Source: a virus. Taken from it: a stretch of 28,345 nt of DNA. Positions 3-22,296 of the stretch are shown here, piece after piece. A program made the translations under genes and the position numbers. The stretch spans positions 1 to 28,345 of IMG/VR virus record IMGVR_UViG_3300020469_005841; one strand, 5' to 3'. Below the pieces are notes generated by a model. The model was not told the DNA's origin, did no database searches, and was given only the letters and a program-made list of their open reading frames with translations. Numbering within the stretch: position 1 is the first letter of the stretch; each line of letters opens with the position of its first letter.

Positions 3-1526
3 GTAGATAGATTTATCGATAAGAGTCCAGACATTTACTACAAAGATCACCTCAAACCAGTGTATACTGATATAAATCCAGAAATAATTTATGAAAAACC
101 AGACGAACTTCGGATTCATAGTAGAGATAATAATCGTATTATTGATCGCGACATTGTTGTTGATGGAGCTGTTATAGCTGAGGTGCATGCGGGCGGCGAT
201 AGAGACGTCATTGGTGCTAGACTTCATGGTCGTCGAGGCTATAGCGATAGAGATGATGTCATAACATTTGAAGATGCGGCCAGAGATGATTTGTCAATCG
301 ACAGAGGTCTTCTCGATAGAAGGCTTGCAGAATTAGAATATGTCGAAAAAGAGGATTTAAATCGACATGGCAACATCGGAATTGATAAAAATGATGACGG
401 GATCGACATGTCAAAGATGACTGTAGCTAGAGACGATGAGGCAGAACTTGGGGAGATAGATCTAGGTTTTGACGAAAACAACGGTAAAGGATACGGGGTA
501 GCAAAAGGTGGAGAACTTTATGCCTATAACTATCCCAGTCAAGGTGTTGGGGCAGGAATAGGGTCGTCTGCAATAGGCGCGGGAGCAGGAGGAGGGGCTG
601 GACTTGGAGCAGCCATAGGAGAAGGAATACTTAACGGAGAGGTAGTACCTACCTTGGGTGGCGTAGGAACGGGAGCTTCACCCCTAGAAGGGCAACCATC
701 AGACGCGCCCCCTTCAGGCGGCGTTGGAGGTCTTATAGGAGGAGCAGGAGCTGGAGGAGCCGCAGGGTTAACTCAAGGGTATATTACAGAAAAGTTAGGA
801 ATGGGACCTGCAAAAGGAATAGGGTATGGAGGAAACGGAAGAGGGTATAATTATGATCACCTCCCAAGAAATGGAGCCCTACATATAATGATGCATGTTG
901 ACGGAAGCGGAAGCATATTAAATACCAGAAAGCAACTAGACACAATGAAAGAAACTATTTTAAAAGACGCTCTACTGCCATATTATAATAATGATGAAAA
1001 TTTGTATAATAATCGAGTTACGATTGTATCTAACGCAGGAGAGAGAACTTTGAAGTTCTTTGCAGAAGCGGCGAAAAAGAAGAATGTATTGGCTATAGCA
1101 TTTCAAGATGAAGCTCAGCCAGCGTATCATCTTCCAAACTTTAATAAAAAGCCAGAAGACCACTATGTTGAAGATATTACTAAACTCAAGTCGTCACTCA
1201 ATGAACATACAGGAGTTTATAGGGGAGTTATGTTTCAAGTGGATAGAGGTAAAACCTTTGCGAAATCGTTCAAGGAATTTGTGGGCAACGCATTTAAAGG
1301 AAAAGGCTATTTATCCGAAAACAGCTTAAAGAAATATTACAGAGATAACAATTTTAATCACATTAAAAATAAAGATGGAATCGTGTTTAGTGACGAGTAT
1401 CACGCAAAAGACTCTGGAGACCCGCAGTACTATTTAAACTTAATTTTTGAGGCTTCGAAGAAAATTGGGCTAGAACTAGATATATACGGTGGAGGACTCA
1501 AAGACGGTAAATATAACAGCAAATAA
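3..1526 (+). CDS. Glycine-rich protein with vWA-like domain (5' partial)
   Basis: The reading frame is open to the left edge, so the true start probably lies outside the window; a GTG at 60 is the first candidate inside it. From that GTG the protein has 488 residues. Residues 1-150 are charged and rich in Asp and Arg. Residues 160-270 are dominated by Gly and Ala, like a flexible or glycine-zipper segment. The C-terminal 210 residues resemble a von Willebrand A domain: a hydrophobic strand leads into DGSGS near residue 280, matching the DxSxS metal-ion-dependent adhesion motif. Phage vWA proteins are often virion or adhesion proteins, so a structural role is possible but unproven. The next gene begins one base after the stop. 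Coding is clear; function is tentative. Confidence 0.75.
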   Translation, partial: VDRFIDKSPDIYYKDHLKPVYTDINPEIIYEKPDELRIHSRDNNRIIDRDIVVDGAVIAEVHAGGDRDVIGARLHGRRGYSDRDDVITFEDAARDDLSIDRGLLDRRLAELEYVEKEDLNRHGNIGIDKNDDGIDMSKMTVARDDEAELGEIDLGFDENNGKGYGVAKGGELYAYNYPSQGVGAGIGSSAIGAGAGGGAGLGAAIGEGILNGEVVPTLGGVGTGASPLEGQPSDAPPSGGVGGLIGGAGAGGAAGLTQGYITEKLGMGPAKGIGYGGNGRGYNYDHLPRNGALHIMMHVDGSGSILNTRKQLDTMKETILKDALLPYYNNDENLYNNRVTIVSNAGERTLKFFAEAAKKKNVLAIAFQDEAQPAYHLPNFNKKPEDHYVEDITKLKSSLNEHTGVYRGVMFQVDRGKTFAKSFKEFVGNAFKGKGYLSENSLKKYYRDNNFNHIKNKDGIVFSDEYHAKDSGDPQYYLNLIFEASKKIGLELDIYGGGLKDGKYNSK

Positions 1527-1527
1527 T

Positions 1528-3558
1528 ATGAAAAAAATTATAACACTCCTTATTCTCAGCGCATTACCCTGCATGGCAGGTAAGCTTTATTTCAATAATG
1601 GCAAAGTAATTGAGGCAGAAATATTAGAAGCCAACGAAACGCACATAATAATTTCGCGCGCCAGCGATCTTCAACAATTTAGATTCAAGACTTCTATGCT
1701 CACAAAAGATTCTCAAAAACAAATAGAGCTTTATTACTCCAAGGGAAGGTATAGCACAATTCCATCGGTCAATATTCCACTTGAAGCAAGAACCTTAACT
1801 CAATATGTTAGGTATATAGATTCCTTAATAGAAGAAAGCCTTAGGAGTAAAAAACTCTTGAGAACAAAAGAGTTAGATGACCAGACTTATGCTAGAAGAT
1901 TGTATCTTACAGCCATAGGAAGAATCCCCACCTTAAAAGAGCTTAATGAATTCACAGAAGACAGGGATAGCGACAAAAAAGACAAACTCATTCAAAAGCT
2001 TTTAAAATCAAATGGATACGTCAACCATCAGTTAAACTGGTGGAGCGATATGCTTAGGGTTAAAGATAGGGTTAACGGCACGAATATTAATGTAGGATCT
2101 GTTTATAGAACATGGTTAAGAAACGCAATAGAAAAAAATAAACCTTACGATCAAATAGTGAGGGAGCTTGTTTCAAGCAGCGGTAAGCTACTAGAAGGAG
2201 GAGAGGCAGTAAGCTATTACCTTAGAGATAGAGGAATGCAAGAAGATAATCTTTCTCATACTATCAGAATATTTTTAGGCACCCAACTTGAATGCGCGAT
2301 GTGCCACGACCATCCATTTGACAGGTGGACCCAGAAAGAATTTTATGAAATGACTGCCTTTACGTCAGGAATAGGAAACGTTAGGCTTAGAGATGGAAAT
2401 AAGGCCATAGGAGAACTTTCTAGAGAAATCAATAAAGACGGAGACGAAAATGCAGGACTTTTTAATAATTGGAGGAACCAAGTCAGAGACTCAATACAAT
2501 TCGGAATAGATAATAACGGAACAGGGACTATAAAGCTACCAAGAGATTTTGCAGAAGATAACGGAAAACCTGGAGACACAGTTTTTGCCAAAGCGATTTT
2601 TACTCCAGAACCTACGGAAACGACACAAGGAGAAAGCAGGAAGGTTTTTGCAGACTGGATGACAAGCAAAGATAACCCAAGGTTTACCACAATGATTGCG
2701 AATCGAATATGGAAACAAATTTTTGGAGCAGGATTAATAGAACCTATAGATTCAATGATGGACGATACGCTTGCAAGCAACGAAAAACTAATGAAATACT
2801 TGGAGCGATTAATGGTGAGCGTAAATTATGACCTAAGAGAGTACCAAAGGATTCTGCTTAACACTAAATTGTTTCAAAGAGAGAGCAAAAAGCAAGACTA
2901 CAAAAGCTTAGAAGAGTATTCTTTTGAGGGTCCGATACTAAGAAGAATGACAGGAGAACAATTATGGGACTCATTAGTTACTTTGGTATATAATGACATT
3001 GATTCAAGGGAAAGAGTTTATCTCTACAATCAGCAAGACTATAGCCCGATATACGAGAGATATAAGGACATGACTGGAGAAGAAATATATGCAGACTTTA
3101 AAAATTTAGCAGAGAACAATTCGGCAAACAGAAATCTTCTCCAGATTGTGTCAGACAACTACTCTCAAGGTAAAAAAATCAAAGACAGACATTTAGTAAG
3201 AAGTAGCTACCTGCAGTACCCTGCTCCAGGGGGACACTTGATTCGCCAGTTTGGAGGAAGTGATAAAGAGCAAATTGACAATAGCAATTCCGAACCAAAC
3301 ACAACCCAAGTTCTTAATCTACTAAATGGCTTTGTTGAGACAAATATTTTAAACAAAAAAGATGCAGATTTCATTGAAAGTATGCAGTCTGAAGGTATTA
3401 TTAATAATCAAATAGAAAGCGCATTCATATCAATACTCTCAAGAAAGCCTACCTCAAAAGAAATATCTATACTCAAAGACTTTATAAAAGAAAAAGATGG
3501 ACTCAAGCATGTGTCTTGGATTCTATTAAATAGCCATGAGTTTATATTTATAAAATAA
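1528..3558 (+). CDS. Exported DUF1549/DUF1553 protein
   Basis: A 676-residue protein. The ATG at 1528 is preferred to an upstream in-frame ATG at 1489, because it leaves only one base after the previous stop and exposes a Sec signal peptide (MKK, hydrophobic stretch, Ala at about 17). Residues 18-75 look like a small beta-barrel (SHD1-like) domain. Residues 90-280 match DUF1549, including CAMCHDHPFDRW with C256, C259 and H260, a heme- or metal-type motif. Residues 371-676 match DUF1553. The architecture is typical of secreted planctomycete, verrucomicrobial and lentisphaeral proteins, usually paired with DUF1501 genes, as here. The biochemical role of these families is not established. The family call is firm; its use by a phage is unknown. 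Confidence 0.9.
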   Translation: MKKIITLLILSALPCMAGKLYFNNGKVIEAEILEANETHIIISRASDLQQFRFKTSMLTKDSQKQIELYYSKGRYSTIPSVNIPLEARTLTQYVRYIDSLIEESLRSKKLLRTKELDDQTYARRLYLTAIGRIPTLKELNEFTEDRDSDKKDKLIQKLLKSNGYVNHQLNWWSDMLRVKDRVNGTNINVGSVYRTWLRNAIEKNKPYDQIVRELVSSSGKLLEGGEAVSYYLRDRGMQEDNLSHTIRIFLGTQLECAMCHDHPFDRWTQKEFYEMTAFTSGIGNVRLRDGNKAIGELSREINKDGDENAGLFNNWRNQVRDSIQFGIDNNGTGTIKLPRDFAEDNGKPGDTVFAKAIFTPEPTETTQGESRKVFADWMTSKDNPRFTTMIANRIWKQIFGAGLIEPIDSMMDDTLASNEKLMKYLERLMVSVNYDLREYQRILLNTKLFQRESKKQDYKSLEEYSFEGPILRRMTGEQLWDSLVTLVYNDIDSRERVYLYNQQDYSPIYERYKDMTGEEIYADFKNLAENNSANRNLLQIVSDNYSQGKKIKDRHLVRSSYLQYPAPGGHLIRQFGGSDKEQIDNSNSEPNTTQVLNLLNGFVETNILNKKDADFIESMQSEGIINNQIESAFISILSRKPTSKEISILKDFIKEKDGLKHVSWILLNSHEFIFIK

Positions 3559-3563
3559 GTGTA
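3559..3563 (+). promoter_or_regulatory. GTGTA start-site motif, 9 bases before ATG
   Basis: GTGTA at 3559-3563 lies 9 bases before the ATG at 3573, with no Shine-Dalgarno between. It is one of eight such sites in the window and is read as GTG plus a TANNNT-like -10 box (TATATC here, a poor last base). Promoter function is inferred. Confidence 0.5.
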
Positions 3564-3572
3564 TATCATATT

Positions 3573-4310
3573 ATGAAAAATCCAGAATACGAAGTTAATC
3601 TTACAGAGCAAATTAAAGCAAGGCTACTCGAAGAAGAGGGTTTCGAAGAAATCGTCTCAGACGAATCTTGGGCTGCAGAAAAAAATAAGGGGAAAAAATT
3701 AAACAAACCCTTTAGAACGCCAGGTGGACCAAAAAAGTTTTCGGTTTACGTAAAAAATGAAAAGGGCAATGTAGTCAAGGTTAACTTCGGAGACCCAAAT
3801 ATGGAAATAAAGAGAGATGATCCTGCTCGCAGAAAGAGCTTCAGGGCAAGACATGGGTGCGACAATCCAGGCCCAAAGACAAAGGCTAAGTATTGGTCTT
3901 GCAAAATGTGGTCCAAAAAAAGCGTAACAAAAGTAACAAAGGGCTCCGAAGACGAGCTTGAGCAAGCGCTGATGGAATATATGGACGAATCTGATGCAAA
4001 AAAAGGTCTTTGGGAAAACATTAGAGACAAAAAGAAAAGAGAGGGAAAAAACTACAGACCCGCAAAACCTGGAGATAAGGATCGTCCATCAAAGAAAGCC
4101 TGGAAGAAGGCTCAATCAACAGAAGAGGATGAAAAAAACTTTAAACCTCATAAAATGTATGACCCAAAAACGGGAAAAGCTTATGACGCAAAAACATACG
4201 AAGATCATTTGAAAATGAAAAAAATGGGATATACCCATGAAGGCCCCGAAGAAGAAAGCGAGGCCTATAAAAGCTCGAAGAAAAAGAAAAAGAAAAAGAA
4301 AGGTTATTGA
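3573..4310 (+). CDS. Basic phage protein with conserved GDPN/ARHxC module
   Basis: A 245-residue, very lysine-rich protein. Residues 45-115 contain a module I recognise from many marine and other tailed phages: KKFSVYVKNEKGNVVKVNFG leading into GDPN, then a RARHGC...WSC segment. Residues 143-180 (GLWENI...PGDKD...AWKKAQ) look like a second small basic phage module. The C-terminus is a run of lysines encoded by AAG/AAA codons. Such proteins are unassigned; a virion-associated or DNA-binding role is a guess from the charge. It sits between the DUF1549/DUF1553 and DUF1501 genes, so those two form part of a phage transcription unit. The stop precedes the next ATG by one base. Confidence 0.8.
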   Translation: MKNPEYEVNLTEQIKARLLEEEGFEEIVSDESWAAEKNKGKKLNKPFRTPGGPKKFSVYVKNEKGNVVKVNFGDPNMEIKRDDPARRKSFRARHGCDNPGPKTKAKYWSCKMWSKKSVTKVTKGSEDELEQALMEYMDESDAKKGLWENIRDKKKREGKNYRPAKPGDKDRPSKKAWKKAQSTEEDEKNFKPHKMYDPKTGKAYDAKTYEDHLKMKKMGYTHEGPEEESEAYKSSKKKKKKKKGY

Positions 4311-4311
4311 A

Positions 4312-5574
4312 ATGGAAGAATTAAGTCGCCGAGCATTCGCAGGTCAAATGGCAAAAAGCTGCCTTGGCGTTAGCGCATTAGTTTATGGAAATGAGTTGCT
4401 TTCGGTATCGAATCGTGTACCAACTGCCAGACACGTAATATTTTTAAATATGACTGGGGGAATGACCCATATTGATACGTTTGACCCCAAGCCAGATAAC
4501 TCAGACGTAATGGGAGAAACCTCTGCAATAAATACTTCTGCAGACGGAATACAGATTGGTCATTGGTTGCCTAAAACAGCCAATCAAATGCACCTTGCGT
4601 CTCTTGTCAGATCCGTTAATAGCAATCAGGGAGCTCACGAACAAGCAAACTATTTACTCCACACAAGCTACCAAAAACGAGGAACAATTATCCACCCAAG
4701 CATGGGAAGCTGGATAAGCAAGTTGTGCGGAAAACTAAACAGAAGCCTTCCTGATAATGTAAAAATTAATGGTGGAAGCGGAATTATTGGTGCTGGATAT
4801 TTTGAAAGCAAGCATGGGCCTCTCCCTTTAGGCAATCCAGGCGCAGGCATACAGAATGTAAAAAAGTCTGACTATATCAATGAGGACATGTATACAAAGC
4901 GACTTGAAGCCTCCAAGCTTTTTAACAAAACATTTAACTATGACTTCCCCCAAAAGCAAGTTAGGGCTTATACTGATTTATACGATGACGCTATAAAACT
5001 TATGAAGAGCAAAGATCTTGAGGCGTTTGATTTAACTAAAGAACCTCAACCCCTGAGGGAAAAATATGGAGAGAATAATTTTGGACAAGGATGCCTTCTA
5101 GCAAGAAGGCTTATAGAAAATAAAGTTAGATTCGTAGAAGTTTCTTATGGCGGCTGGGATATGCACAACGATGTCTTTGGGAACATGGAAACAAGAGGAG
5201 CTGTACTCGATTCAGGCTTAAGTAGCCTGCTTCATGATTTAGACCAAAGAGGCATGCTGTCAGATACAATGGTAGTTGTAGCAAGTGAATTTGGTAGAAG
5301 CCCAGAAGTTAAAGCTGGCAGAGTAGGAAGGGACCACCACCCATCTGCATTTAGCGTTTTATTTGCAGGAGGCGGAATAAAGCAAGGTTTCGTTCACGGA
5401 GTGTCAGACGAAAGAGCTCACTACGTTGAAGAGGGCGGAGTAGATATAGAATCAATTAACGCAACAATAGCTTATGCTATGGGCCTGAGTATAGAGAAAA
5501 TTACATTTTCTCCCAGCGGAAGACCATTTAAAGTTTCTAACGGGAAGCCTCCAGTCTTCGAAATTCTTTCTTAA
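4312..5574 (+). CDS. Tat-signal DUF1501 protein (alkaline phosphatase/sulfatase-like)
   Basis: A 420-residue protein. The ATG at 4312 is preferred to an in-frame upstream ATG at 4237, because AAAGG lies just upstream and the N-terminus then reads as a twin-arginine signal: S5-R6-R7-A8-F9 followed by a hydrophobic stretch to about residue 26. The body matches DUF1501, a family related to alkaline phosphatases and sulfatases: MTGGMTHIDTFDPKP (H53, D55), then NQGAHEQ, GGWDMH, SEFGRSPE, GRDHHP and a closing GGxDIxxxxATI region. DUF1501 genes normally sit beside DUF1549/DUF1553 genes, as here. Substrate is unknown; export by the host Tat pathway is expected. It appears full length with no sign of decay. 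Confidence 0.9.
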   Translation: MEELSRRAFAGQMAKSCLGVSALVYGNELLSVSNRVPTARHVIFLNMTGGMTHIDTFDPKPDNSDVMGETSAINTSADGIQIGHWLPKTANQMHLASLVRSVNSNQGAHEQANYLLHTSYQKRGTIIHPSMGSWISKLCGKLNRSLPDNVKINGGSGIIGAGYFESKHGPLPLGNPGAGIQNVKKSDYINEDMYTKRLEASKLFNKTFNYDFPQKQVRAYTDLYDDAIKLMKSKDLEAFDLTKEPQPLREKYGENNFGQGCLLARRLIENKVRFVEVSYGGWDMHNDVFGNMETRGAVLDSGLSSLLHDLDQRGMLSDTMVVVASEFGRSPEVKAGRVGRDHHPSAFSVLFAGGGIKQGFVHGVSDERAHYVEEGGVDIESINATIAYAMGLSIEKITFSPSGRPFKVSNGKPPVFEILS

Positions 5575-10390: not shown

Positions 10391-11146
10391 ATGTTAGCGT
10401 TATTTAAAAGTCACTATTCGATAGGCAAAAGCATATTAACCCTTGACGATCCAATTACACACAAAGAAGGCGGATCAGACAGCGTTTTTACGATTGCCAA
10501 GGAAAATAATTTAGAAACAGTAGTTTTAGTAGAAGATTCCCTCACGGGATTTCTTCAGGCTAAAAAGATATCAGAAAAATACGGAATTAATTTAGCCTTT
10601 GGGTTGAGGATTAACATGAAGGAAAACGCAGGAGAAGACCCGAAACAAGAAGCTTCAAGCTCTTCTCACAAAATTATTATTTTTGCCAAGACATCCAAAG
10701 GATGTAAGATATTAAATAATATTTATAGCGAGGCATTCTCTAAAAACTTTAACTCCGTAGACGAAAAGATATTAAAAAAGCTATGGAAAAAGAGAGATCT
10801 AGAATTAGCAATCCCCTTTTATGATTCATTTATATTTAACAATACAATGAAGTTTTCTAATTGCACTCCTAGTTTTTCTTTTACAGATCCATACTTTATC
10901 ACAGAGTCAAACGGCTTGCCATTCGACGCCATGCTAGAAGAAAGGGTAAAAAATTATGCCAGAGACAAGCAAAAGATAATTAAAGCCAAGAGTATTTATT
11001 ATAAAAATAAAGAGGACGTAAAAGCCTTACAGACATATAAATGTATCTGCGGGAGAACTTTTGGAAATAAAACTTTATCGAAACCAAACTTAGATCACTT
11101 CGGAAGCGACCAATTTAGCTTTGAGAGCTGGAAGGAAAAAAAATGA
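10391..11146 (+). CDS. Stand-alone PHP domain of DNA polymerase III alpha
   Basis: A 251-residue protein corresponding to the first 280 or so residues of bacterial DnaE. The ATG at 10391 is chosen because an upstream in-frame start at 10331 lies before the promoter at 10355-10383. The start resembles the PHP opening (LFKSHYSIG against the usual HVHTEYS), followed by DSVFTIAKENNLETVVLVED and a GIN...FGLRI segment. The C-terminal part (DKQKIIKAKSIYYKNKEDV, CICGRTF, DQFSFESW) matches the stretch joining PHP to the polymerase core. The HxH metal motif is lost, so the domain is probably structural and proofreading is left to the exonuclease two genes downstream. The polymerase core is a separate gene at 12290. 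The stop overlaps the SET gene start (ATGA). Confidence 0.75.
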   Translation: MLALFKSHYSIGKSILTLDDPITHKEGGSDSVFTIAKENNLETVVLVEDSLTGFLQAKKISEKYGINLAFGLRINMKENAGEDPKQEASSSSHKIIIFAKTSKGCKILNNIYSEAFSKNFNSVDEKILKKLWKKRDLELAIPFYDSFIFNNTMKFSNCTPSFSFTDPYFITESNGLPFDAMLEERVKNYARDKQKIIKAKSIYYKNKEDVKALQTYKCICGRTFGNKTLSKPNLDHFGSDQFSFESWKEKK

Positions 11147-11643
11147 AGTATAACCTACAAGGACCCGATAAGGCATATATAGGCAAATCAAAAATTAAGG
11201 GCAGAGGAGTATTTGCTCTAGAAGACATTGATGAAGGTGAAGTAGTAGAAGAATGTCACTTTATAATGTGTGGAAATTTAAGTGGAATTGAAGACAAAAA
11301 TCTTTTAAGATACGCAAAAAGTTTTGTATATAAAACAAATCAATCTGGAGAAAAAAATGAGGAAGACTCAATTAAGGCCGCGCTTTTGTTAAGTCTGGGA
11401 GACGAAGAAGTCTCCGAGCAGCTTAAAAAAGATCTGGTCAGTCTCGGCTACTCAGAGGATCTATCTGATCTTTTCTCCACGCTAGCAGTGCTGGGCTTTG
11501 GAATGATATACAACCACTCAAAACAATACAATCTTCACTTCGAATTAGACTATGAAAATCTACTGGTATCCTATTCTGCAAATAGAAAAATAGAAAAGGA
11601 CGAAGAACTTTTAGTCAATTACGGACATTATTACGAACTATAA
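11143..11643 (+). CDS. SET-domain protein (putative lysine methyltransferase)
   Basis: A 166-residue protein that is essentially one SET domain. GRGVF at residues 20-24 (preceded by SKIK) is the cofactor-binding start; YNHS at 123-126 matches the conserved NHS motif; EELLVNYG at 154-161 matches the ExLxxNYG motif with the catalytic-region Tyr. A helical insert fills residues 48-115. SET proteins transfer methyl groups from S-adenosylmethionine, mostly to protein lysines. The start overlaps the PHP gene stop by four bases and has AAGGA upstream. The gene lies inside the replication operon, so a replication or host nucleoid protein is a plausible target, but that is inference. Confidence 0.85.
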   Translation: MKYNLQGPDKAYIGKSKIKGRGVFALEDIDEGEVVEECHFIMCGNLSGIEDKNLLRYAKSFVYKTNQSGEKNEEDSIKAALLLSLGDEEVSEQLKKDLVSLGYSEDLSDLFSTLAVLGFGMIYNHSKQYNLHFELDYENLLVSYSANRKIEKDEELLVNYGHYYEL

Positions 11644-11645
11644 AC

Positions 11646-12290
11646 ATGAAAGAATCATTACTAAGATTTAATAAAAAACAAAAGTATTTACTCTTCGATT
11701 ACGAAACATGTAATTTGAACCTAGTATCAAACAATAAACCGTGGCAACTTGCCTTTATGGCTATCGAGGGAGATAAGGTTTTGGAGCAAAAAGACTATTG
11801 GCTAAAATGGGACGAACTAGATGTGTCTCCAGAAGCCGCAAAAATCACCGGTTTTACAAAGAAGAAATATGAGCAACGGGCATCTTGCCCGAAGGAGGCT
11901 TTGAATCACTTCGAGAGATATTTGTATGACGAAACCTTCATTAAAGTAGGGCACAACCTATTGGGGTTTGATGTATATATGCATGATATGCATAGAAAGC
12001 TCGCGAGCCCCGAAGCAGAGTCAGACTTTAGCTATATTGATCAAGTAATAGATACGCTGTGTTTAGCCAAAGCAGTGAAGAAGAACATAAAAATTACTTC
12101 TTCAGAAGAAAGGCTTCCATGGCAATACAGGCTCAACAATTTAATAGAAAGAGGATTGAGTTGCAATTTAAAGCAGTGCTGCAAAGATTACGATGTGCCA
12201 TTTGATGCATCTAAATTACATGACGCCCTTTACGACATTAGGGTAAACTATGAAGTATTTAAAAAAATGCTATGGGAGGTAGAGATATAA
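11646..12290 (+). CDS. DEDDh 3'-5' exonuclease (proofreading subunit-like)
   Basis: A 214-residue exonuclease of the DnaQ/epsilon superfamily. ExoI is FDYET with D18 and E20; ExoII is GHNLLGFDV with D109; ExoIII is HDALYD with H192 and D197. All four acids and the histidine of the DEDDh type are present, so it should be active. Its place directly before the polymerase core, whose stop and start overlap as TAATG, suggests it supplies proofreading for the phage DnaE, as epsilon does in bacteria. A general DNA or RNA exonuclease role is the alternative. Confidence 0.88.
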   Translation: MKESLLRFNKKQKYLLFDYETCNLNLVSNNKPWQLAFMAIEGDKVLEQKDYWLKWDELDVSPEAAKITGFTKKKYEQRASCPKEALNHFERYLYDETFIKVGHNLLGFDVYMHDMHRKLASPEAESDFSYIDQVIDTLCLAKAVKKNIKITSSEERLPWQYRLNNLIERGLSCNLKQCCKDYDVPFDASKLHDALYDIRVNYEVFKKMLWEVEI

Positions 12291-14854
12291 TGCAAGAATT
12301 TTTAGACAAATTTTCAGATTACAAAGAATGCTCTCCTCCAGGAGTTAGGCTTCCAAACATTAAGATAGATAAAAAATACTATGAAATTCTCGGAGAGGAC
12401 GAAAACATCTCTAACTATGATTTCCTCAGGAAGCTTTGTCACAAGGGAGTCTATGACAAAGGTATAGAAAAATTCGAAAACAAAAAAGATTACTTTGATC
12501 GAGCTAAATCGGAACTTACGATCCTCGAAGACCTAGGTTTTACGGATTATATTTTACTTAATTGGGACATCTTAAACTTTTGTCACGAAAACGATATACC
12601 TACAGGTCCAGGAAGGGGGTCTGCAGCAGGGTCCCTAGTTCTTTATCTGATTGGAGTAACCAACGTAGATCCAGTTAAATACAATTTATTTTTCGAGCGA
12701 TTCGTATCTAAAAGTAGAGCGAGAAAAATAGAGGAGGATGGAATTACCTACCTAGACGGGAGTTTGCTAGCGGACGTGGATAATGATATTGCCTATGAAC
12801 GCAGGATAGAGGTTATTGACTACATCGACAAAAAACACCCAGGAAGAACAGCTAAAATTTTAACACTCAACACCTTAAGTGGCAAGCTATGCGTAAAAGA
12901 ATGCGGAAAAATAGTGGGAGAGTTAACAGAACAAGACGTAAATATAGTAAGTGATACTATTCCTAAAAAATTTGGAGTGGTATGCCCGCTAACAGAAGCT
13001 ATTGCAGAAAGCGAAATGTTTTCTGATTGGGCTTCAGAAAATCCAGAAGTGTTTAGTATTGCATTAAAACTAGAGGGTCTTAATAAAAACACAGGAGTTC
13101 ACCCCAGCGGTATCGCTATTTCCTTCGACAGCATGTCCGACATGTGCCCAATACAAAAATCGGCAGATGGAGCGCTAGTAACTGGCTATGATATGAATTG
13201 GGTATCAGAGCTAATGGTAAAATTTGATATTCTTGGGTTAAGAACCTTGAGCGTTATTTATGACGTATGCAATAATATCCAAGAAGATATTTCTGAGCTA
13301 GACCTAAATGACCCTTCTACATTCACGCCCCTTCAGTCTCTTAAATCTCCCCATGGTTTATTTCAATTAGAATCAGATACAAATTTCAGGGTCTGCAAAA
13401 AAATAAAACCAAGAAACCTAGAGGAATTAAGTGCAGTGGTTGCAATTGGTAGGCCTGGAGCACTTGATTTTCTGGATGACTACGCAAGATACACAGAAAC
13501 AGAAGAGCCTCAGGTAATTCATGATTTTTTTAGTGATGTTTTGGACTATACTGGAGGTATCCCACTTTACCAAGAGCAACTTATGCAAATGGCTGTAAAA
13601 ATTGGATTTACTCTTGATGAATCAGAGCAGTTAAGGAGAATCGTTGGAAAGAAAAAAGTCGAACAAATGCCCGCTTGGAGAGAAAAGATTAATAATAAAA
13701 TAGAAGAAAACCAGCTAGAACCAGAAATCGGAGACATCCTCTGGAGAGTCGCAGAAGATAGCGCAAACTATTCTTTCAATAAATCCCACTCACTTGCATA
13801 TGCCACTTTATCTGCGTGGACGACATATTTAAAATTTAACTTTCCGCAGCAGTTTTTTATCTCGCTACTCAAAATGACTAAATATGAACCTTCTCCACAA
13901 GAGGAAATCTCAAAGATTTCTAAAGAACTCGGGTTTTTTGGAATAAAATTACTTTCACCAGATCTAGCGAAGTCAAAGATGGACTTCTCCATAGAGGGCA
14001 AAGACATTAGGTTTGGATTAAATAGCATAAAGGGAGTGAGCGAAAAATCTTTAGAATCACTTAGAGACTTCAGGTCTACTGAAACTCCCACAAAGTACGA
14101 TATATTTTTATCTGCTAAACAAGCGGGTTTAAACATTGGGGTGTTATCTGCATTAATACAGGCTGGAGCTTTAGAAAGTAAGGGTAAAAATAGATCCCTT
14201 ATGGCTCTAGAAGCACAAGCCTTTAATCTTTTGACAGACAGAGAAAAAAGAAACTTCATACAGCTTGGTCAAAAATATGATTTTAAGCTATTGAACTGTA
14301 TTGCCGATGCAAAAAAAGGCTTGCTTATGGGAGATGACGGAAAGCCTCTTATGAAGGATTCTAGATTTAATACCTTCAAGAAAAAATACGACTCGTATAA
14401 ATTAATCTATGACAAAAACCGTCAATATGAAACTTTCGCCAACTGGTATTTTGAGACTCAGCTTTTAGGCTATAGCCATAGCGAAAAACTTAAAAATTGC
14501 TTTCAAGACAAAAATGGCTCACTAAAGGATTCTTCAGATTTAATCACAATGGACTTGGATGAGAAAGGTAAATTTATAGGAGTTGTGGAGGATTGCATAA
14601 AAAGAACATCCAGAAACGGTAATAAATATATGAAGCTGTCTATTGCTGACGAATCAGGGAGATACGATGCAATGCTATTAAATTCAAGAAGGGGAAATCA
14701 TTACGACAGATACTTTGACAACGAGTCTAATAAGACTCCTTCAAAGAAGAATATTATCGTAGCCTTCGGAAGAAAGAGCGAGGATATAATATTTCTTGAT
14801 TCCGTAAAAATAATGGATGAAAAAATATATATGAAGATGTCAGAAGTAAAATAA
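12290..14854 (+). CDS. dnaE: DNA polymerase III alpha core lacking its PHP domain
   Basis: An 854-residue C-family replicative polymerase. The ATG at 12290 has GGGAGGT nine bases upstream. Residues 106-117 (GPGRGSAAGSLV) are the palm nucleotide-binding motif; D162 and D164 (ADVDND) and D313 (KFDILGLRTL) match the three catalytic aspartates; GVHPSGIAIS (269-278) and the FNKSHSLAYA region are also conserved. An OB-fold segment sits at about 735-800. It begins where bacterial DnaE leaves the PHP domain, and that missing part is the gene at 10391. Together the two give about 1105 residues, close to a normal DnaE. I see no inactivating change. Confidence 0.95.
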   Translation: MQEFLDKFSDYKECSPPGVRLPNIKIDKKYYEILGEDENISNYDFLRKLCHKGVYDKGIEKFENKKDYFDRAKSELTILEDLGFTDYILLNWDILNFCHENDIPTGPGRGSAAGSLVLYLIGVTNVDPVKYNLFFERFVSKSRARKIEEDGITYLDGSLLADVDNDIAYERRIEVIDYIDKKHPGRTAKILTLNTLSGKLCVKECGKIVGELTEQDVNIVSDTIPKKFGVVCPLTEAIAESEMFSDWASENPEVFSIALKLEGLNKNTGVHPSGIAISFDSMSDMCPIQKSADGALVTGYDMNWVSELMVKFDILGLRTLSVIYDVCNNIQEDISELDLNDPSTFTPLQSLKSPHGLFQLESDTNFRVCKKIKPRNLEELSAVVAIGRPGALDFLDDYARYTETEEPQVIHDFFSDVLDYTGGIPLYQEQLMQMAVKIGFTLDESEQLRRIVGKKKVEQMPAWREKINNKIEENQLEPEIGDILWRVAEDSANYSFNKSHSLAYATLSAWTTYLKFNFPQQFFISLLKMTKYEPSPQEEISKISKELGFFGIKLLSPDLAKSKMDFSIEGKDIRFGLNSIKGVSEKSLESLRDFRSTETPTKYDIFLSAKQAGLNIGVLSALIQAGALESKGKNRSLMALEAQAFNLLTDREKRNFIQLGQKYDFKLLNCIADAKKGLLMGDDGKPLMKDSRFNTFKKKYDSYKLIYDKNRQYETFANWYFETQLLGYSHSEKLKNCFQDKNGSLKDSSDLITMDLDEKGKFIGVVEDCIKRTSRNGNKYMKLSIADESGRYDAMLLNSRRGNHYDRYFDNESNKTPSKKNIIVAFGRKSEDIIFLDSVKIMDEKIYMKMSEVK

Positions 14855-14870: not shown

Positions 14871-17336
14871 ATGAAGCCAAAGCCTAACTTCACCCCACGA
14901 GCGCAGCAAGCAATAAACGAAGCAAAGAAAGCCGCCAAAGTTTACTTAAGTCGAACAGTAAGCCTAGAGCATTTATTTTACGGAATGGTAAAACTTAGCG
15001 CGGGAATATTGAGCGAAATCCTCTTCTTGTTAAATGTAGACCAACATAGTCTTATCAAAGAAATCTCAGACTCTTTAGAGAAGCAAGCTATAGACGATTA
15101 CTCAAGCGGAGACTATAACGAGGAAGACGAAGACCCTGTATACGATGAGCATTTTCATATGGTTCTTAAAGTCGCCGCATCAATAAGTTTTAAGCTTGGA
15201 CACGAATATGTAGGCTTAGAGCATATTTTGCTTGCCTTACTTAAATACGAAGATTCTCCGGTACCGTTTTACTTCAAACTATTCAATTCTTCCGAGGAAG
15301 ACGTTATAACAGAAGTTAGAGAATATCTACATATTTCGAACGAAAGGCCTCAAGAAACTAGGGAGCCTAGCCCAAATATTGCAATCAACTCTCCACAGCT
15401 ACCACAAACACTCGAAAAGTTTGCAGTGAACTTTAACGAGCGAGCAAACAAAGGGAAGCTTGATAATATCATCGGAAAAGATGAGGAAATTAAAGATATT
15501 TGCGAAATACTATGTAGAAGAACAAAAAATAACCCAATACTTTTAGGTGATCCTGGAGTTGGAAAAACTGCTATTGTGGAAGGCTTAGCCTTTAAAATTT
15601 TTAAAAATGAAGCCCCAGATTTTCTTTTGGGCAAAACCATATATGGCCTAGACCTAGGTTCTCTGATCGCAGGAACAAAGTACAGGGGGCAATTCGAAGA
15701 GAGATTAAAAAAGATTATTGAGGAAGCAAAAAAGGACCAAAATATAATTCTGTTTATAGACGAAATTCATACCCTTGTTGGAGCAGGAAGCGCAGAGGGA
15801 AGCATGGATGCAGCAAACTTACTTAAGCCCCTGCTTGCAAGAGGAGAGCTAAAATGCATAGGAGCAACGACTCAGGAAGAGTACAAAAAATCTATAATGA
15901 AAGACGGGGCTCTAGACAGGAGATTTCAGCCAGTAAGAGCGAAAGAGCCCACAAAAGAAGAAACAAGAACAATACTTTATGGCATAAAAAACAAGTATGA
16001 AAACTTTCACGCAATAAAATATAGCAATGAGATCATAGACTTAATTATAGAATTAACATCAAAATATATACTGGACAAGCAATTTCCAGATAAAGCTATC
16101 GATATCATGGATCAAGCTGGTTCGAAAGTAAAAATTAGAAACGTTCAAAGACCAGAAGAAGCCAAAGAGATTGAGAAAGAGCTAGAACGGCTTGCGATAA
16201 AAGAATCTAAAATGGAAATGATTAACGGCAAAAGTCTATTAATAGAAGACGAGCAGCTTTATTTGCTCGAAAAATATGACGATGTAATAAGAGAGTGGGC
16301 CGAAACAAAATTTAAAAGAAAATTTAAAGTAACTAAAAAAGACATATATGAAGTAATATCTTCTAGAACCGGAGTTCCCGTAAAAGAAATGTCAAAAAGA
16401 GATTCGCAGAGAATGGTGGGCTTATTTAAGAATCTTAAATCTAAAATCATAGGACAGAATCAGCCAATTCAAGAAATATCAGAAGCAATATTAAGATCGC
16501 AATCAGGATTAAAAGACCCCAACAAGCCAATAGGCGGCTTTCTTCTGATAGGTAAGAGCGGAACAGGGAAAACTCATACGGCAAAGTGCATAGCTGAATT
16601 TATATATGGAGATAAAAATAATCTCATACAGCTTGACATGAGCGAGTACTCTGAAAAAATAACGGCGAGCAGACTTACTGGCGCTTCTCCAGGATACGTG
16701 GGTTATGAGGAGGGCGGAGTCCTGACTGAAAAAGTTAGAAAGAATCCTTATAGCGTAGTCCTTTTTGACGAAATAGAAAAAGCCCATCCAGAGGTTGTAA
16801 ACATTTTGCTTCAGATACTTGAAGAAGGGAATGTCACAGACAATACTGGAAGAAAAATATATTTTAATAATTGCACAGTGATAATGACTGGCAATATTGG
16901 AGCAGAACAACTCGAAACAAATCACATAGGCTTCGCACCAAATTCAGATTCCCACAACGAGGATGTAATCGCCAAAGAGCTTAAAAAAACATTTAAGCCA
17001 GAATTTATAAACAGGCTTAGTCAGGTAATTTTATTTAATGATTTCAGCGAGGAGGATATGAAAAAAATAATCAAGATTGAAGTTGCACAGATTGGAGATA
17101 AGCTATCTGATAGAAATATTAAGGTGAAGGCTACAGCCGCTTTAATAAATTATATTCAGTCTCTTTGCTCTTCAGAAAAGCTTGGAGCAAGACCAATTAA
17201 AAGATTAATTGAAAAGAATATAGAAAACCCACTTTCGGAGCTTATTTTGAGCAAAAAAGTTATTAGTAATCAGATCGTAACATTCGGTTACGCCAGAAAG
17301 AAAGTAACAACCTCTATCAGGGAAGCAAAGGCTTAG
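14871..17336 (+). CDS. ClpA/ClpC-like AAA+ unfoldase
   Basis: An 821-residue Hsp100 protein. The start is taken at 14871 by the GTGTA spacing; ATG 14865, two codons earlier, is the alternative. Residues 1-155 are a double Clp N-domain. The first ATPase has Walker A GDPGVGKT at about 226-233 and Walker B LFIDE at about 294-298; a short coiled segment (428-480) follows; the second has GKSGTGKT at about 561-568 and VVLFDE near 630. An IGF tripeptide at 686-688 lies where ClpA and ClpC carry their ClpP-binding loop, and LGARPIKR closes the D2 small domain. So it may feed substrates to host ClpP, redirecting proteolysis. No ClpP gene is seen here. The stop lies inside the end of the convergent gene. 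Confidence 0.93.
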   Translation: MKPKPNFTPRAQQAINEAKKAAKVYLSRTVSLEHLFYGMVKLSAGILSEILFLLNVDQHSLIKEISDSLEKQAIDDYSSGDYNEEDEDPVYDEHFHMVLKVAASISFKLGHEYVGLEHILLALLKYEDSPVPFYFKLFNSSEEDVITEVREYLHISNERPQETREPSPNIAINSPQLPQTLEKFAVNFNERANKGKLDNIIGKDEEIKDICEILCRRTKNNPILLGDPGVGKTAIVEGLAFKIFKNEAPDFLLGKTIYGLDLGSLIAGTKYRGQFEERLKKIIEEAKKDQNIILFIDEIHTLVGAGSAEGSMDAANLLKPLLARGELKCIGATTQEEYKKSIMKDGALDRRFQPVRAKEPTKEETRTILYGIKNKYENFHAIKYSNEIIDLIIELTSKYILDKQFPDKAIDIMDQAGSKVKIRNVQRPEEAKEIEKELERLAIKESKMEMINGKSLLIEDEQLYLLEKYDDVIREWAETKFKRKFKVTKKDIYEVISSRTGVPVKEMSKRDSQRMVGLFKNLKSKIIGQNQPIQEISEAILRSQSGLKDPNKPIGGFLLIGKSGTGKTHTAKCIAEFIYGDKNNLIQLDMSEYSEKITASRLTGASPGYVGYEEGGVLTEKVRKNPYSVVLFDEIEKAHPEVVNILLQILEEGNVTDNTGRKIYFNNCTVIMTGNIGAEQLETNHIGFAPNSDSHNEDVIAKELKKTFKPEFINRLSQVILFNDFSEEDMKKIIKIEVAQIGDKLSDRNIKVKATAALINYIQSLCSSEKLGARPIKRLIEKNIENPLSELILSKKVISNQIVTFGYARKKVTTSIREAKA

Positions 17337-18891: not shown

Positions 18892-20031
18892 TTAAACAAT
18901 GAGTCCAAGAAGAACCCTGTCGTCGATGATCATACGGCCCTCTTCAAGGGATCCGTAGTAACCGATCTTCGATTGGCGGGTTGCAAACTGGTCATCCGCG
19001 ACTAAGCTGAACTCGTCTCCGCTTTCGGAGTCTGTGGCAACCGCACGAATCATCGATTCGCGACTAAGGTCGACACCTACGAGAACTTCTTCGGTTGCTC
19101 CGTCAAAAGCGGAGGTGCCTGCAGCGCCTGTATAATGATCAGCGTATAATGTAGCTCCAGCGGAAACATCAAATGTTGTATTCCACTTTTGACCTACGCC
19201 CATTTCATTATACTCCTGGATCGATACGCCATAGAACTCAGGAATGCCTGCGCTGTTGAAAACAGCATCACGCATTGTATCAGTTCCAGCGATTCCACCA
19301 GCGTTTCCAGCGGCTGCTCCGTCTCCACCCTTGGTGTTGACAGGGTTGTAAGCCAAACCGCGAATTTCTTCTACGATTTCAGGGGAAACCAAGATGTCTG
19401 TGATTCCACGACCACGACGATCAGCAGGTGTTCCGCCGTTCCAAGCTGTGTTGATTCTCTTTGCCTTGGTGAACAACTTGTTCAAGTCGGAAAGAAGGAA
19501 CCTGTTAGCTTGAGCCGAACGAATAACGTGTTGCTCGCTGTTTGTGGAAGCATTAGCAAGAGCAGTCATGATCATGGTAGCGGAGGTCTTTTCTTGCTTG
19601 AGAAGAACTTCCTGAGCCATGCGTGTGAATGTTTTGCTAACGACATCAAGTCGGGAACGAGAAGCATAACGCTTGTCGAAGCTCAATGCGCTGTCGAGAG
19701 TATAAGTTGTGAACTTAAGCTCGCTTTGCGAAGGAGCGACTTGGTTAGTCGGAAGACCTCCAGGAACGGATTGACTCCAAACCTGAATGTAGTCCTCATC
19801 TGTAATATCATGATAGAGATCCAAAGGAATACTTGGGCTCTCATCAGAGTTAAATTGAAGAGAAGTAAACATGTTGCTTACTGTGGGAGCCGTATTAACG
19901 ACTTCCGCCAAAACTGGGCCGATAAATTCAGCGAGAGCAGTTTGGGCTTCGTATGCAACGTCTCTGTTCTTCGAAGCCATAGCTTTAACTAGCTCGACTT
20001 GCTCGGGTGTTTGCTTTAGAGTAATTTTCAT
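18892..20031 (-). CDS. Major capsid protein
   Basis: A 379-residue protein in the usual place after protease-scaffold and decoration genes. The layout fits an HK97-fold capsid protein: a helical N-terminus (residues 1-50), a long strand-rich middle with LDSALSFDKRYASRSRLDV, an A-domain with IVEEIRGLAYNPVNTK and a Gly/Ala loop, then GVSIQEYNEMG and a C-terminal strand region (IGYYGSLEEGRMIIDDRVL). AAGGA lies 11 bases before the ATG. By eye it is richer in G+C and in preferred codons (GAA, AAG, GTT, ACT) than its neighbours, as expected for the most abundant virion protein. A strong terminator follows. Identity rests on position and general character, not on a specific motif. Confidence 0.85.
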   Translation of the reverse strand: MKITLKQTPEQVELVKAMASKNRDVAYEAQTALAEFIGPVLAEVVNTAPTVSNMFTSLQFNSDESPSIPLDLYHDITDEDYIQVWSQSVPGGLPTNQVAPSQSELKFTTYTLDSALSFDKRYASRSRLDVVSKTFTRMAQEVLLKQEKTSATMIMTALANASTNSEQHVIRSAQANRFLLSDLNKLFTKAKRINTAWNGGTPADRRGRGITDILVSPEIVEEIRGLAYNPVNTKGGDGAAAGNAGGIAGTDTMRDAVFNSAGIPEFYGVSIQEYNEMGVGQKWNTTFDVSAGATLYADHYTGAAGTSAFDGATEEVLVGVDLSRESMIRAVATDSESGDEFSLVADDQFATRQSKIGYYGSLEEGRMIIDDRVLLGLIV

Positions 20032-20048: not shown

Positions 20049-20657
20049 TTAGAAGCTAACTTTGCAGAGAAACTTGTCTGCACCGCTTTTGGCGACAACT
20101 GAACCAACTGTTCCGTCTGTAGCGTGAACATCAAGCTCGCCATCAGCCGCGAGAAGAAGTGTCATTCCTACATCAACGTTAGCTGGGGTTGCGAATGCAG
20201 AAGCCGCGAGAAGAACGAGACCTCTTGTCAAAACAGGGACTGTTTGGCCAGGAAGTACGCCTTGCGCTTCATCAAGTTTTTGTTTGTAATAGAGCATTTT
20301 TTCTCCATTTTCGTCGAAGGCCAAGGTCTCACGAAGAGTGATCCCCAAAGCTACTTCGCCAGCAGCGGCAGGAGTAACAGTCATACCGTTAGAAGGGTAT
20401 GCGTTATATCCGATATGTGCGCTTGAAAAGCTGGCGCCGAGATAATCTCTCAACTTGTCTCCGCTAGCGGAGTCCATCTTTGAAGGCACATCACCGGGCA
20501 GTTCTCCCGCATTTACCTTGACCACTACGCCTGAGTCCCACGCTCCACTGCCAGCCTCTACGCATTGTGCGAGAGTCAAACTTGCAGTATCGAGTGCGAA
20601 CATGTTTACGACTTCGTGTTCACTGTAATCTCGGTATGGTAATATTCTTTTTGCCAT
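20049..20657 (-). CDS. Candidate capsid decoration protein
   Basis: A 202-residue protein between the protease-scaffold and the capsid protein, the standard place for decoration proteins. It is rich in Gly, Ala and Val with strand-like runs: GEVALGITLRETLAFDENGE near the middle, then VLPGQTVPVLTRGLVLLAAS, and VGSVVAKSGADKFLCKV at the end. I recognise similar proteins next to capsid genes in other marine phages. Codon use is biased like that of the capsid gene. The start has only a weak AAAAGAAA upstream. Virion function is likely; decoration rather than minor capsid is inferred. Confidence 0.72.
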   Translation of the reverse strand: MAKRILPYRDYSEHEVVNMFALDTASLTLAQCVEAGSGAWDSGVVVKVNAGELPGDVPSKMDSASGDKLRDYLGASFSSAHIGYNAYPSNGMTVTPAAAGEVALGITLRETLAFDENGEKMLYYKQKLDEAQGVLPGQTVPVLTRGLVLLAASAFATPANVDVGMTLLLAADGELDVHATDGTVGSVVAKSGADKFLCKVSF

Positions 20658-20670
20658 AATTTATTTTCTT

Positions 20671-22296
20671 TTAGAATGAAATTTTTACAGAATCCTTAAA
20701 TGTCTTGGCGAAGCGATCCTTGAAGGACTCTCCGTCAGAAGAAGATTCGTTGTTGTTCACAACTGCAGCGTCTTCAACTTCAATGTTGTCGAGGGCATCT
20801 TCTACATCTTCAGATTCTTGGGTTTCTTGAGTTTGTTCAGAAGCCTGAGAGACTTCTTCAACAATTTCCTCAGTAGCTTCAGCAACTTCTTCTTCTACTT
20901 GGTTAAGGCGTTTTTCAACCTCTTCCTTAACCTTAGCTTCAAAAGCGGCGGCTTGTTCTTGGATGTATTCTTTGTTCTTGTGCTTCCATACTTTTGCAAG
21001 TTTTTCTCGGTAAGCGGCGAACGAATCATCAGAATTGTCTAGATCAGACAACTCAGTCGCAACCACTTGGCGATCTTCGTCATCTAAATCATAAACTTCG
21101 TCAAGAGCCTCCATGCGGTTATTAAAAAGAACTTCTGCTTCTCTTGCGGCATTTTCATCCTCAAGGGTAACAAGCTTCTCTTCGGTAGCCTTAAGTTGAT
21201 CTTCTACTTCAGTCATTTTTTCTTGAAGGGCTGCTTGAGCGCTAGCAGCTTCTTCTTTTTCAGCCTTAGCTTTTTCGAGGTCAGCGATATATTGCTCGCT
21301 TTTTTCTTTTATCGCCTCGCTAAAAACCTTAGAAATGCTGGCAACGGCCTCTTCAGAAAAGTCCTGCTTGCCGAGCTTTTCGTCTAAAGCTGCTCGGAAT
21401 TCATTGATTATTGTGTCTTTATCCATAGTAAAGTTTTTATTGTATTCTTTGTTTAGTACATTTTCCTTAACGGATTGGGAAATTTTTTCATTATCACTAA
21501 TTAATTTGTCTATAGGCTTGATAGCAACTGGCTCATCTCTTTCTTCTGGAGTTTCCATTTTTTCATTCACAACCAAGCCCTTAACATCAGCGGCTGGATT
21601 TGATGTGAAGCCTATTCCAAGTGGGTATATATCTCCAGTGATCAATCGACTAACTACCCTTCCATCAGAAAGAACTCCTCTGCCCCCAAAAGATTTTAGG
21701 TAAGGAGTATATTCTTCGATCTCTTCTTTGCTAGAGACTATAATAGACTCAGACAGGTCTTGACCTCCAATGGCGATTACATAGTCATTAAATCCAACCT
21801 CCCAGCTGGCAGACACCGCATGATAAAAATCACTCTCACTATCCGTTGAGCTCATAACCAAATCTGCAAACTCTTTGCTTGCAGTTTTATATACCACTGC
21901 ACCCAACGCAATATTGTAAGCGCTTTCGGATAATAGAGCATCCTCCGAAGATATCAGCTCAGAATCATCATCATATTTAGAGAATCCAGCGGATACTATA
22001 TGTCCAACAATTTTATCTCTATTATGTTCTATATTTGTAGGTTTATGAATGAAGTAATCTTTTATTTTGACCGCGGCTTCACTATCGATGCCATCTCCGT
22101 TCTTATTAAATTTGTTAACTACTGCAGCATTAAATGCTACGCCAATTAAATCTATATTTTTTTCAAAGTTTATTCCTTGGGGAATCAGAGGTTTAAGAGC
22201 CTCAATTGAGGCTTCGCTTATGCTTGAGTCGCATATATCATTTGATGCAAGCACAACATTCTCAAAAGTTGCAGTGTATTTGAATTCCTGGGACAT
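20671..22296 (-). CDS. Head maturation protease fused to scaffold
   Basis: A 541-residue fusion. Residues 1-240 are the prohead protease: H91 (NIEHNRDKIVGHI) and a serine in YHAVSASWEVGF (S162 or S164) fit the His-Ser pair of phage maturation proteases. Residues 290-541 are a strongly acidic, Glu/Ala-rich coiled coil ending in the basic SFKDRFAKTFKDS, typical of a scaffold that binds capsid protein. An internal Met291 (21426) begins the scaffold half and may be a separate start. The ATG at 22296 is chosen over GTG 22311 because GTGTA lies exactly 10 bases before it. The protease is expected to remove the scaffold before DNA entry. Confidence 0.9.
   Translation of the reverse strand: MSQEFKYTATFENVVLASNDICDSSISEASIEALKPLIPQGINFEKNIDLIGVAFNAAVVNKFNKNGDGIDSEAAVKIKDYFIHKPTNIEHNRDKIVGHIVSAGFSKYDDDSELISSEDALLSESAYNIALGAVVYKTASKEFADLVMSSTDSESDFYHAVSASWEVGFNDYVIAIGGQDLSESIIVSSKEEIEEYTPYLKSFGGRGVLSDGRVVSRLITGDIYPLGIGFTSNPAADVKGLVVNEKMETPEERDEPVAIKPIDKLISDNEKISQSVKENVLNKEYNKNFTMDKDTIINEFRAALDEKLGKQDFSEEAVASISKVFSEAIKEKSEQYIADLEKAKAEKEEAASAQAALQEKMTEVEDQLKATEEKLVTLEDENAAREAEVLFNNRMEALDEVYDLDDEDRQVVATELSDLDNSDDSFAAYREKLAKVWKHKNKEYIQEQAAAFEAKVKEEVEKRLNQVEEEVAEATEEIVEEVSQASEQTQETQESEDVEDALDNIEVEDAAVVNNNESSSDGESFKDRFAKTFKDSVKISF
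21452..21461 (-). promoter_or_regulatory. ATGTACTAAA element upstream of internal scaffold start
   Basis: Inside the protease-scaffold gene, the minus strand reads ATGTACTAAA about 30 bases before the internal ATG (Met291). It differs by one base from the GTGTACTAAA at 18807. It may drive a separate scaffold mRNA; this is speculative. Confidence 0.25.

Follow-up and report, generated by a model that had tools for sequence, protein, structure and literature searches.

Background

Marine phages carry phosphate-stress genes as auxiliary metabolic genes. The closest described counterparts of the locus reported here are bacterial: in Planctomycetes and Verrucomicrobia, PSCyt2-PSD1 (DUF1549/DUF1553) proteins contain both domains in that order together with an invariant CxxCH motif, and a DUF1501 gene lies downstream, within 150 nt in 57 of 60 bacterial pairs. 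We know of no activity for any member of either family. PSCyt genes, whose function is called unknown, are often found near sulfatase genes in freshwater verrucomicrobia, and some occur with carbohydrate-binding modules (PMC5615132).

Here we describe a pair of this kind in a 28,345-nt window, meaning the whole stretch of DNA analysed. The PSCyt2-PSD1 protein of the window shares the features listed above with its bacterial counterparts but is phage-borne and has no PSCyt1 domain, and an N-terminus resembling SHD1 is found in the phages and in an Opitutia orthologue. Unlike in the bacterial pairs, in several phages a phage gene separates PSCyt2-PSD1 from DUF1501. The DUF1501 protein is likewise similar to other PF07394 proteins in its full-length match, Tat signal and conserved residues, but is phage-borne. 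As with phosphate-stress auxiliary genes, the pair is host-derived and conserved among related phages; in contrast to those genes, it is a two-gene exported unit of families of unknown function, in phages whose hosts are probably PVC bacteria. Host-derived auxiliary genes are thus a known kind, among which the exported pair is a new type. The earlier note knew of no described phage role, and none was found in the literature searched. The pair itself is unreported in phages there beyond one weak match: a Pseudomonas phage paper mentions DUF1501, but this was rejected as only a weak CDD match in a 61-aa protein.

The pair in its row of phage genes

Per Pfam and PHROG profile matches, the window contig is a phage, encoding terminase, the small and large chains of RNR, a PHP-domain protein and an exonuclease, with the large terminase at 22312-24180 (phrog_2, E 2.1e-26). 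Two further replication-type ORFs, yielding an 860-aa DNA polymerase III alpha-like and an 823-aa Clp-like protein, were read by eye from their translations. The PSCyt2-PSD1 gene (676 aa, 1528..3558, plus strand) is preceded by a gene for a Gly-rich protein (3..1526, plus strand), in which a VWA-like DxSGS motif was read by eye from the translation and for which no family match was found in Pfam or PHROG. The latter gene stops one nucleotide short of the ATG of PSCyt2-PSD1. The earlier note had said that the two families normally occur as adjacent genes and that a matching pair sits here among phage genes; both are indeed present, but a 245-aa gene matching phrog_7595 and phrog_11180 (3573..4310, plus strand) lies between them, its stop one base before the ATG of the DUF1501 gene (4312..5574, plus strand, 420 aa). 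Because of these one-base spacings, we regard the four genes as a tight row. In relatives, the phrog_7595 gene is found between the pair, after it or elsewhere, with a length of 192 to 593 aa, as if it were mobile.

A SET-domain protein gene was observed in the replication row of the window (11143-11643, E 3e-11), with homologues in contigs L003, L004 and, apparently, L106. No tRNA or Rfam match was found within the window, promoter and terminator signals were no commoner than chance, and NCBIfam and PADLOC searches returned no match. Among the matches listed, terminase relatives from isolated phages are only 23.9-26.2% identical, and for the 379-aa protein encoded at 18892-20031, by our guess the capsid protein, isolated phages gave no relatives. 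For these two reasons the phage group looks uncultured.

Recurrence in other phages

Fourteen further IMG/VR contigs of up to 222 kb carry the pair, with identities of 70-87% for DUF1501 and 60-79% for PSCyt2-PSD1. These (L001-L014) and the window form group G1; about 20 more pair-bearing contigs make up G2 (L093-L099 and others) and G3 (L022, L104, L106 and others). The IMG/VR profile search for DUF1501 kept the best 80 of 276 encoding stretches, that for PSCyt2-PSD1 gave 37 loci, and PSCyt2 was found in all 28 pair contigs tested. The two genes of the pair lie no more than 1.8 kb apart in the phage contigs, with the sole exception of L010, where they are 7.5 kb apart. The surroundings differ. 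In the window, L003, L004 and L011-L013 the pair adjoins both RNR and the polymerase row, and in L009 the polymerase row but no RNR; L002 and L006 have it next to glycosyltransferase-type genes. In L005, L008 and L014 it directly follows a tmRNA gene, which ends 11-46 nt upstream of PSCyt2-PSD1. The pair stays together while the flanking genes change.

Nine relatives of the window phage were seen to carry complete tmRNA genes (Rfam RF00023, 90-154 bits), namely L005 (7549-7915), L008 (7489-7926), L014 (7530-7927), L211 (9776-10138), L214 (12277-12660), L223, L230, L231 and L232. Some of the predicted tags are long or basic (GAKNRVRALGFKNRIAAKRFGFKSRKLALAA), and others end in MVA or MAA instead of ALAA.

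Other large marine phage contigs (set T, L023-L085) mostly carry two to four nearby DUF1501 copies (for example L030, 8466-15324); no full PSCyt2-PSD1 gene was found in them, and the twin-arginine motif is kept in 153 of their 157 DUF1501 proteins. Neither protein of the window matched the INPHARED phages, and the tandem-type DUF1501 proteins gave one weak match there.

Given the 28-kb fragment length of the window and the lack of a full terminase match in some set T contigs, the locus could in principle be a chimeric assembly, or the contigs bacterial ones filed as viral. We consider the chance of such an artefact negligible. The upstream junction, from the VWA-like gene into PSCyt2-PSD1, is repeated in L002, L011, L012 and L013, and the downstream one, from DUF1501 into the RNR small chain, in L003, L004, L011 and L013, which argues against a chimera. 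All four sets (G1, G2, G3 and T) include contigs with a large terminase match, those of some set T contigs being weak and partial and these contigs less securely viral, and the phage clades are separate from bacterial sequences in the trees. The claim that the pair is phage-borne accordingly holds, supported by the Pfam matches, the terminase, RNR and replication genes on the contig and the 14 close relatives.

The PSCyt2-PSD1 protein

The protein retrieved PSCyt2/DUF1549 (E 2.3e-43, 149 bits, Pfam cut-off 29.8) followed by PSD1/DUF1553 (E 6.2e-32, 111.4 bits, cut-off 28.5), the order that the family requires. Read from the sequence, a Sec-type signal peptide occupies about aa 1-18 (MKKIITLLILSALPCMAG; 1528..1581, plus strand), and the N-termini are hydrophobic in all 15 phage sequences of alignment A2. 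A CAMCH motif at aa 256-260 (2293..2307, plus strand) conforms to the CxxCH c-type haem attachment motif, which all 101 of the phage and bacterial PSCyt2-PSD1 proteins compared share, that of the window included, and is probably a c-type haem site.

The AlphaFold model (pLDDT 88, pTM 0.88) has a small N-terminal beta domain at aa 18-72 (1579..1743, plus strand) that matches Sla1 homology domain 1 (2hbp; Z 7.4, 57 residues, rmsd 2.1), and a stretch resembling it is visible in the Opitutia orthologue. The body that follows is mostly helical. Foldseek against the PDB and BFVD at E 0.001 gave no match for the model, and the only structural resemblances were to SHD1 and, weakly, to a phycobilisome linker; since there is no clear PDB match, we claim no fold for the main body. 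A sequence search of the PDB with PSCyt2-PSD1 and DUF1501 as single proteins also gave no match.

The DUF1501 protein

The match to DUF1501 is full-length (PF07394, profile positions 1-384 of 390; E 5.3e-104, 348.9 bits against a cut-off of 27). A twin-arginine motif for Tat export, SRRAF, lies at 4324..4338 (plus strand); R6, R7 and F9 of this SRRxF motif are invariant in the 15 close phage sequences, and RRx[FL] occurs in 36 of 36 DUF1501 proteins of phage pairs. The earlier note had called the motifs and export signals of both proteins intact, and the CxxCH, Sec and Tat findings agree with this.

On the basis of its AlphaFold model (pLDDT 90, pTM 0.87), the protein is predicted to have the alkaline phosphatase superfamily fold. 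The likeness extends over about 250 residues, with Z about 20 to NPP and PafA (20.0 to NPP family chains, rmsd 3.1-3.3, about 247 residues) and 18-19 to S1 sulfatases, while in Foldseek sulfatases rank first (E 5e-7 to a sulfatase). The DUF1501 profile, when compared with PDB sequences, matched only sulfatases and lipoteichoic acid synthases, weakly and mostly via one segment. In that weak alignment EFGR (aa 326-329; 5287..5298, plus strand) is aligned with the DHG metal-site segment of sulfatases, so that Glu326-Phe327 falls on their Asp-His/Asn metal pair. E326, F327 and R329 are invariant in alignment A3, and H109, D283, H285, E326, R329, R340 and H342 are conserved in DUF1501 proteins. Also unlike in S1 sulfatases, the formylglycine motif C/S-x-P/A-x-R is absent from the window protein and from all phage pair proteins except that of L012, in which SQATR is a chance match. 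The earlier note's suggestion that the pair might release sulfate or phosphate fits the predicted fold, but not these site residues. We regard DUF1501 as a predicted alkaline-phosphatase-fold protein with an apparently altered site, for which hydrolase activity is plausible.

Selection, origin and hosts

For close pairs, DUF1501 has a dN/dS of 0.013-0.055 and PSCyt2-PSD1 one of 0.029-0.066, and both genes are under purifying selection. The trees of the two genes agree: each of the groups G1, G2 and G3 forms a single clade, and all three join one and the same chromosomal pair of marine Opitutia (L117, L118), apart from every other bacterium sampled. That Opitutia pair lies nested within the phage sequences, but the AU test does not reject a single phage clade (p 0.43 and 0.11), and the phages may have acquired the pair once or twice. 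G1 and G3 have a common locus, in which RNR and a PHP-SET-exonuclease-polymerase row adjoin the pair. The closest cellular DUF1501 sequences are about 53% identical to those of the phages, and are thus no recent contamination with host genes, one of the refuting outcomes that the earlier note had named. The pair is a genuine case of host-derived genes long kept in phages, and its location and origin are well supported.

In L118 the gene row reads TonB-plug receptor, PSCyt2-PSD1, DUF1501 and PSCyt1/cytochrome c; the same order is kept in the more distant G262, where the adjoining genes read as cytochrome oxidase. Among 223 genomes of the order, 4 gave an Opitutia-type PSCyt2-PSD1 partner at E 1e-130 or better, and two of these 4 have 66 and 55 DUF1501 matches. 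The hosts of these phages are most likely verrucomicrobia of the Opitutia, judging from two genes only, although the G+C content, about 36-40% in the phages and 46-51% in the Opitutia contigs, counts against such a host. The earlier note had assigned the two families to planctomycetes, verrucomicrobia and lentisphaera. The nearest relatives do lie in Opitutia, but DUF1501 also occurs in the Caulobacter and Deinobacterium control genomes.

DUF1559 pseudopilin-type genes are typical of planctomycetes. One such gene was observed beside two DUF1501 genes in the viral contig L083 (8450-9430), pointing to a planctomycete host for that phage; G037 also has one. Separately, a Verrucomicrobiaceae MAG (L169, 1690-5172) encodes PSCyt2-PSD1 and DUF1501 in one 1160-aa ORF, either a natural fusion or the result of a lost stop; as a single MAG case it was left out of the evidence.

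Glycan genes near the pair

Of 19 contigs, 15 have a GDP_Man_Dehyd-family gene within 10 kb of the pair (5.9 expected, p below 1e-4), and 8 of 13 have Sulfotransfer_2 within the same distance (3.8 expected, p 0.009); these p values are optimistic, as the contigs have common ancestry, which inflates the association. GDP-mannose dehydratase genes also adjoin the pair, and near it L002, L006 and L094 encode glycosyltransferases, sulfotransferases, a pyruvyl transferase, an FkbM methyltransferase and DegT aminotransferases. Glycan genes are common in large marine phages. In the window and G3, the immediate neighbours of the pair are RNR and polymerase genes rather than glycan genes. L006 was seen to carry several Sulfotransfer_2 genes among its glycosyltransferases (11288-12679, 15626-16258 and 20442-21266), and G006 and G010 have about ten each.

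Possible roles of the pair

Our leading, still tentative, reading is that this host-derived auxiliary pair is exported to the host envelope and processes an envelope or imported glycan. During infection, PSCyt2-PSD1 would leave the cytoplasm via Sec and DUF1501 would be exported folded via Tat, both reaching the host periplasm or envelope. There, PSCyt2-PSD1 might act as a scaffold bearing the probable c-type haem site, together with DUF1501 as a putative divergent alkaline-phosphatase-fold enzyme; the pair would process the glycan, or another esterified substrate, and the host surface or uptake would be altered to the phage's benefit. We infer the host, the cooperation of the two proteins, the substrate and the benefit. 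The glycan-directed part is suggested by export along two routes, by the sugar-nucleotide and sulfotransferase genes nearby and by the freshwater context (PMC5615132). The change of the host surface proposed in the earlier note gains indirect support from the same nearby genes. The phosphatase/sulfatase superfamily fold of the DUF1501 model supports the glycan reading, which is weakened by the incomplete conservation of the sulfatase metal and formylglycine residues and by the RNR and polymerase genes that adjoin the pair in the window and G3.

Those RNR genes would fit an acquisition role, in which the pair would help the infected cell to free or import phosphate, sulfate or a metal or haem compound via a host TonB-dependent receptor, feeding phage replication. 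The predicted fold of DUF1501 also favours this, as does the cellular counterpart, which in two lineages (L118, G262) is flanked by a TonB-plug receptor gene and a cytochrome c gene. Nevertheless, the phage loci examined showed no receptor or cytochrome c gene next to the pair, the canonical catalytic residues appear altered, and we consider acquisition possible but rather unlikely. The same TonB receptor neighbour could instead suggest that the two exported proteins bind or block a receptor on the cell surface, perhaps that very one, and thereby mask it or exclude superinfecting phages. Such a function would be consistent with the export signals of both proteins and the surface-glycan genes near the pair, but the invariance of active-site-like residues exceeds the needs of a blocking protein, and to our knowledge blocking proteins are small; this makes exclusion improbable. 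The least likely function, and one we doubt strongly, is that of a virion component or an aid to opening the host envelope. A large Gly-rich gene directly upstream of the pair in several phages could be read in its favour, against which stand the Sec and Tat signals, the distance of the pair from the terminase block in the window and the chromosomal gene row in which its close cellular orthologues lie.

Implications

The DUF1549/DUF1553 and DUF1501 families are among the most expanded PVC families of unknown function. A single phage pair, apart from its cellular TonB receptor and cytochrome c neighbours, is a minimal unit for function tests. A wider proposal, which we offer as speculative and on balance doubtful, is that PVC phages turned a defining secreted protein machinery of the host to general use in infection, three groups having single pairs and other phages two to four DUF1501 paralogues in tandem; the pair would then be an exported haem/phosphatase-fold two-component enzyme of undescribed chemistry that rebuilds the host surface glycan. 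The pair marks out a large marine phage group, apparently uncultured and with PVC bacteria as its probable hosts, and its retention by these phages suggests that the two proteins matter during infection.
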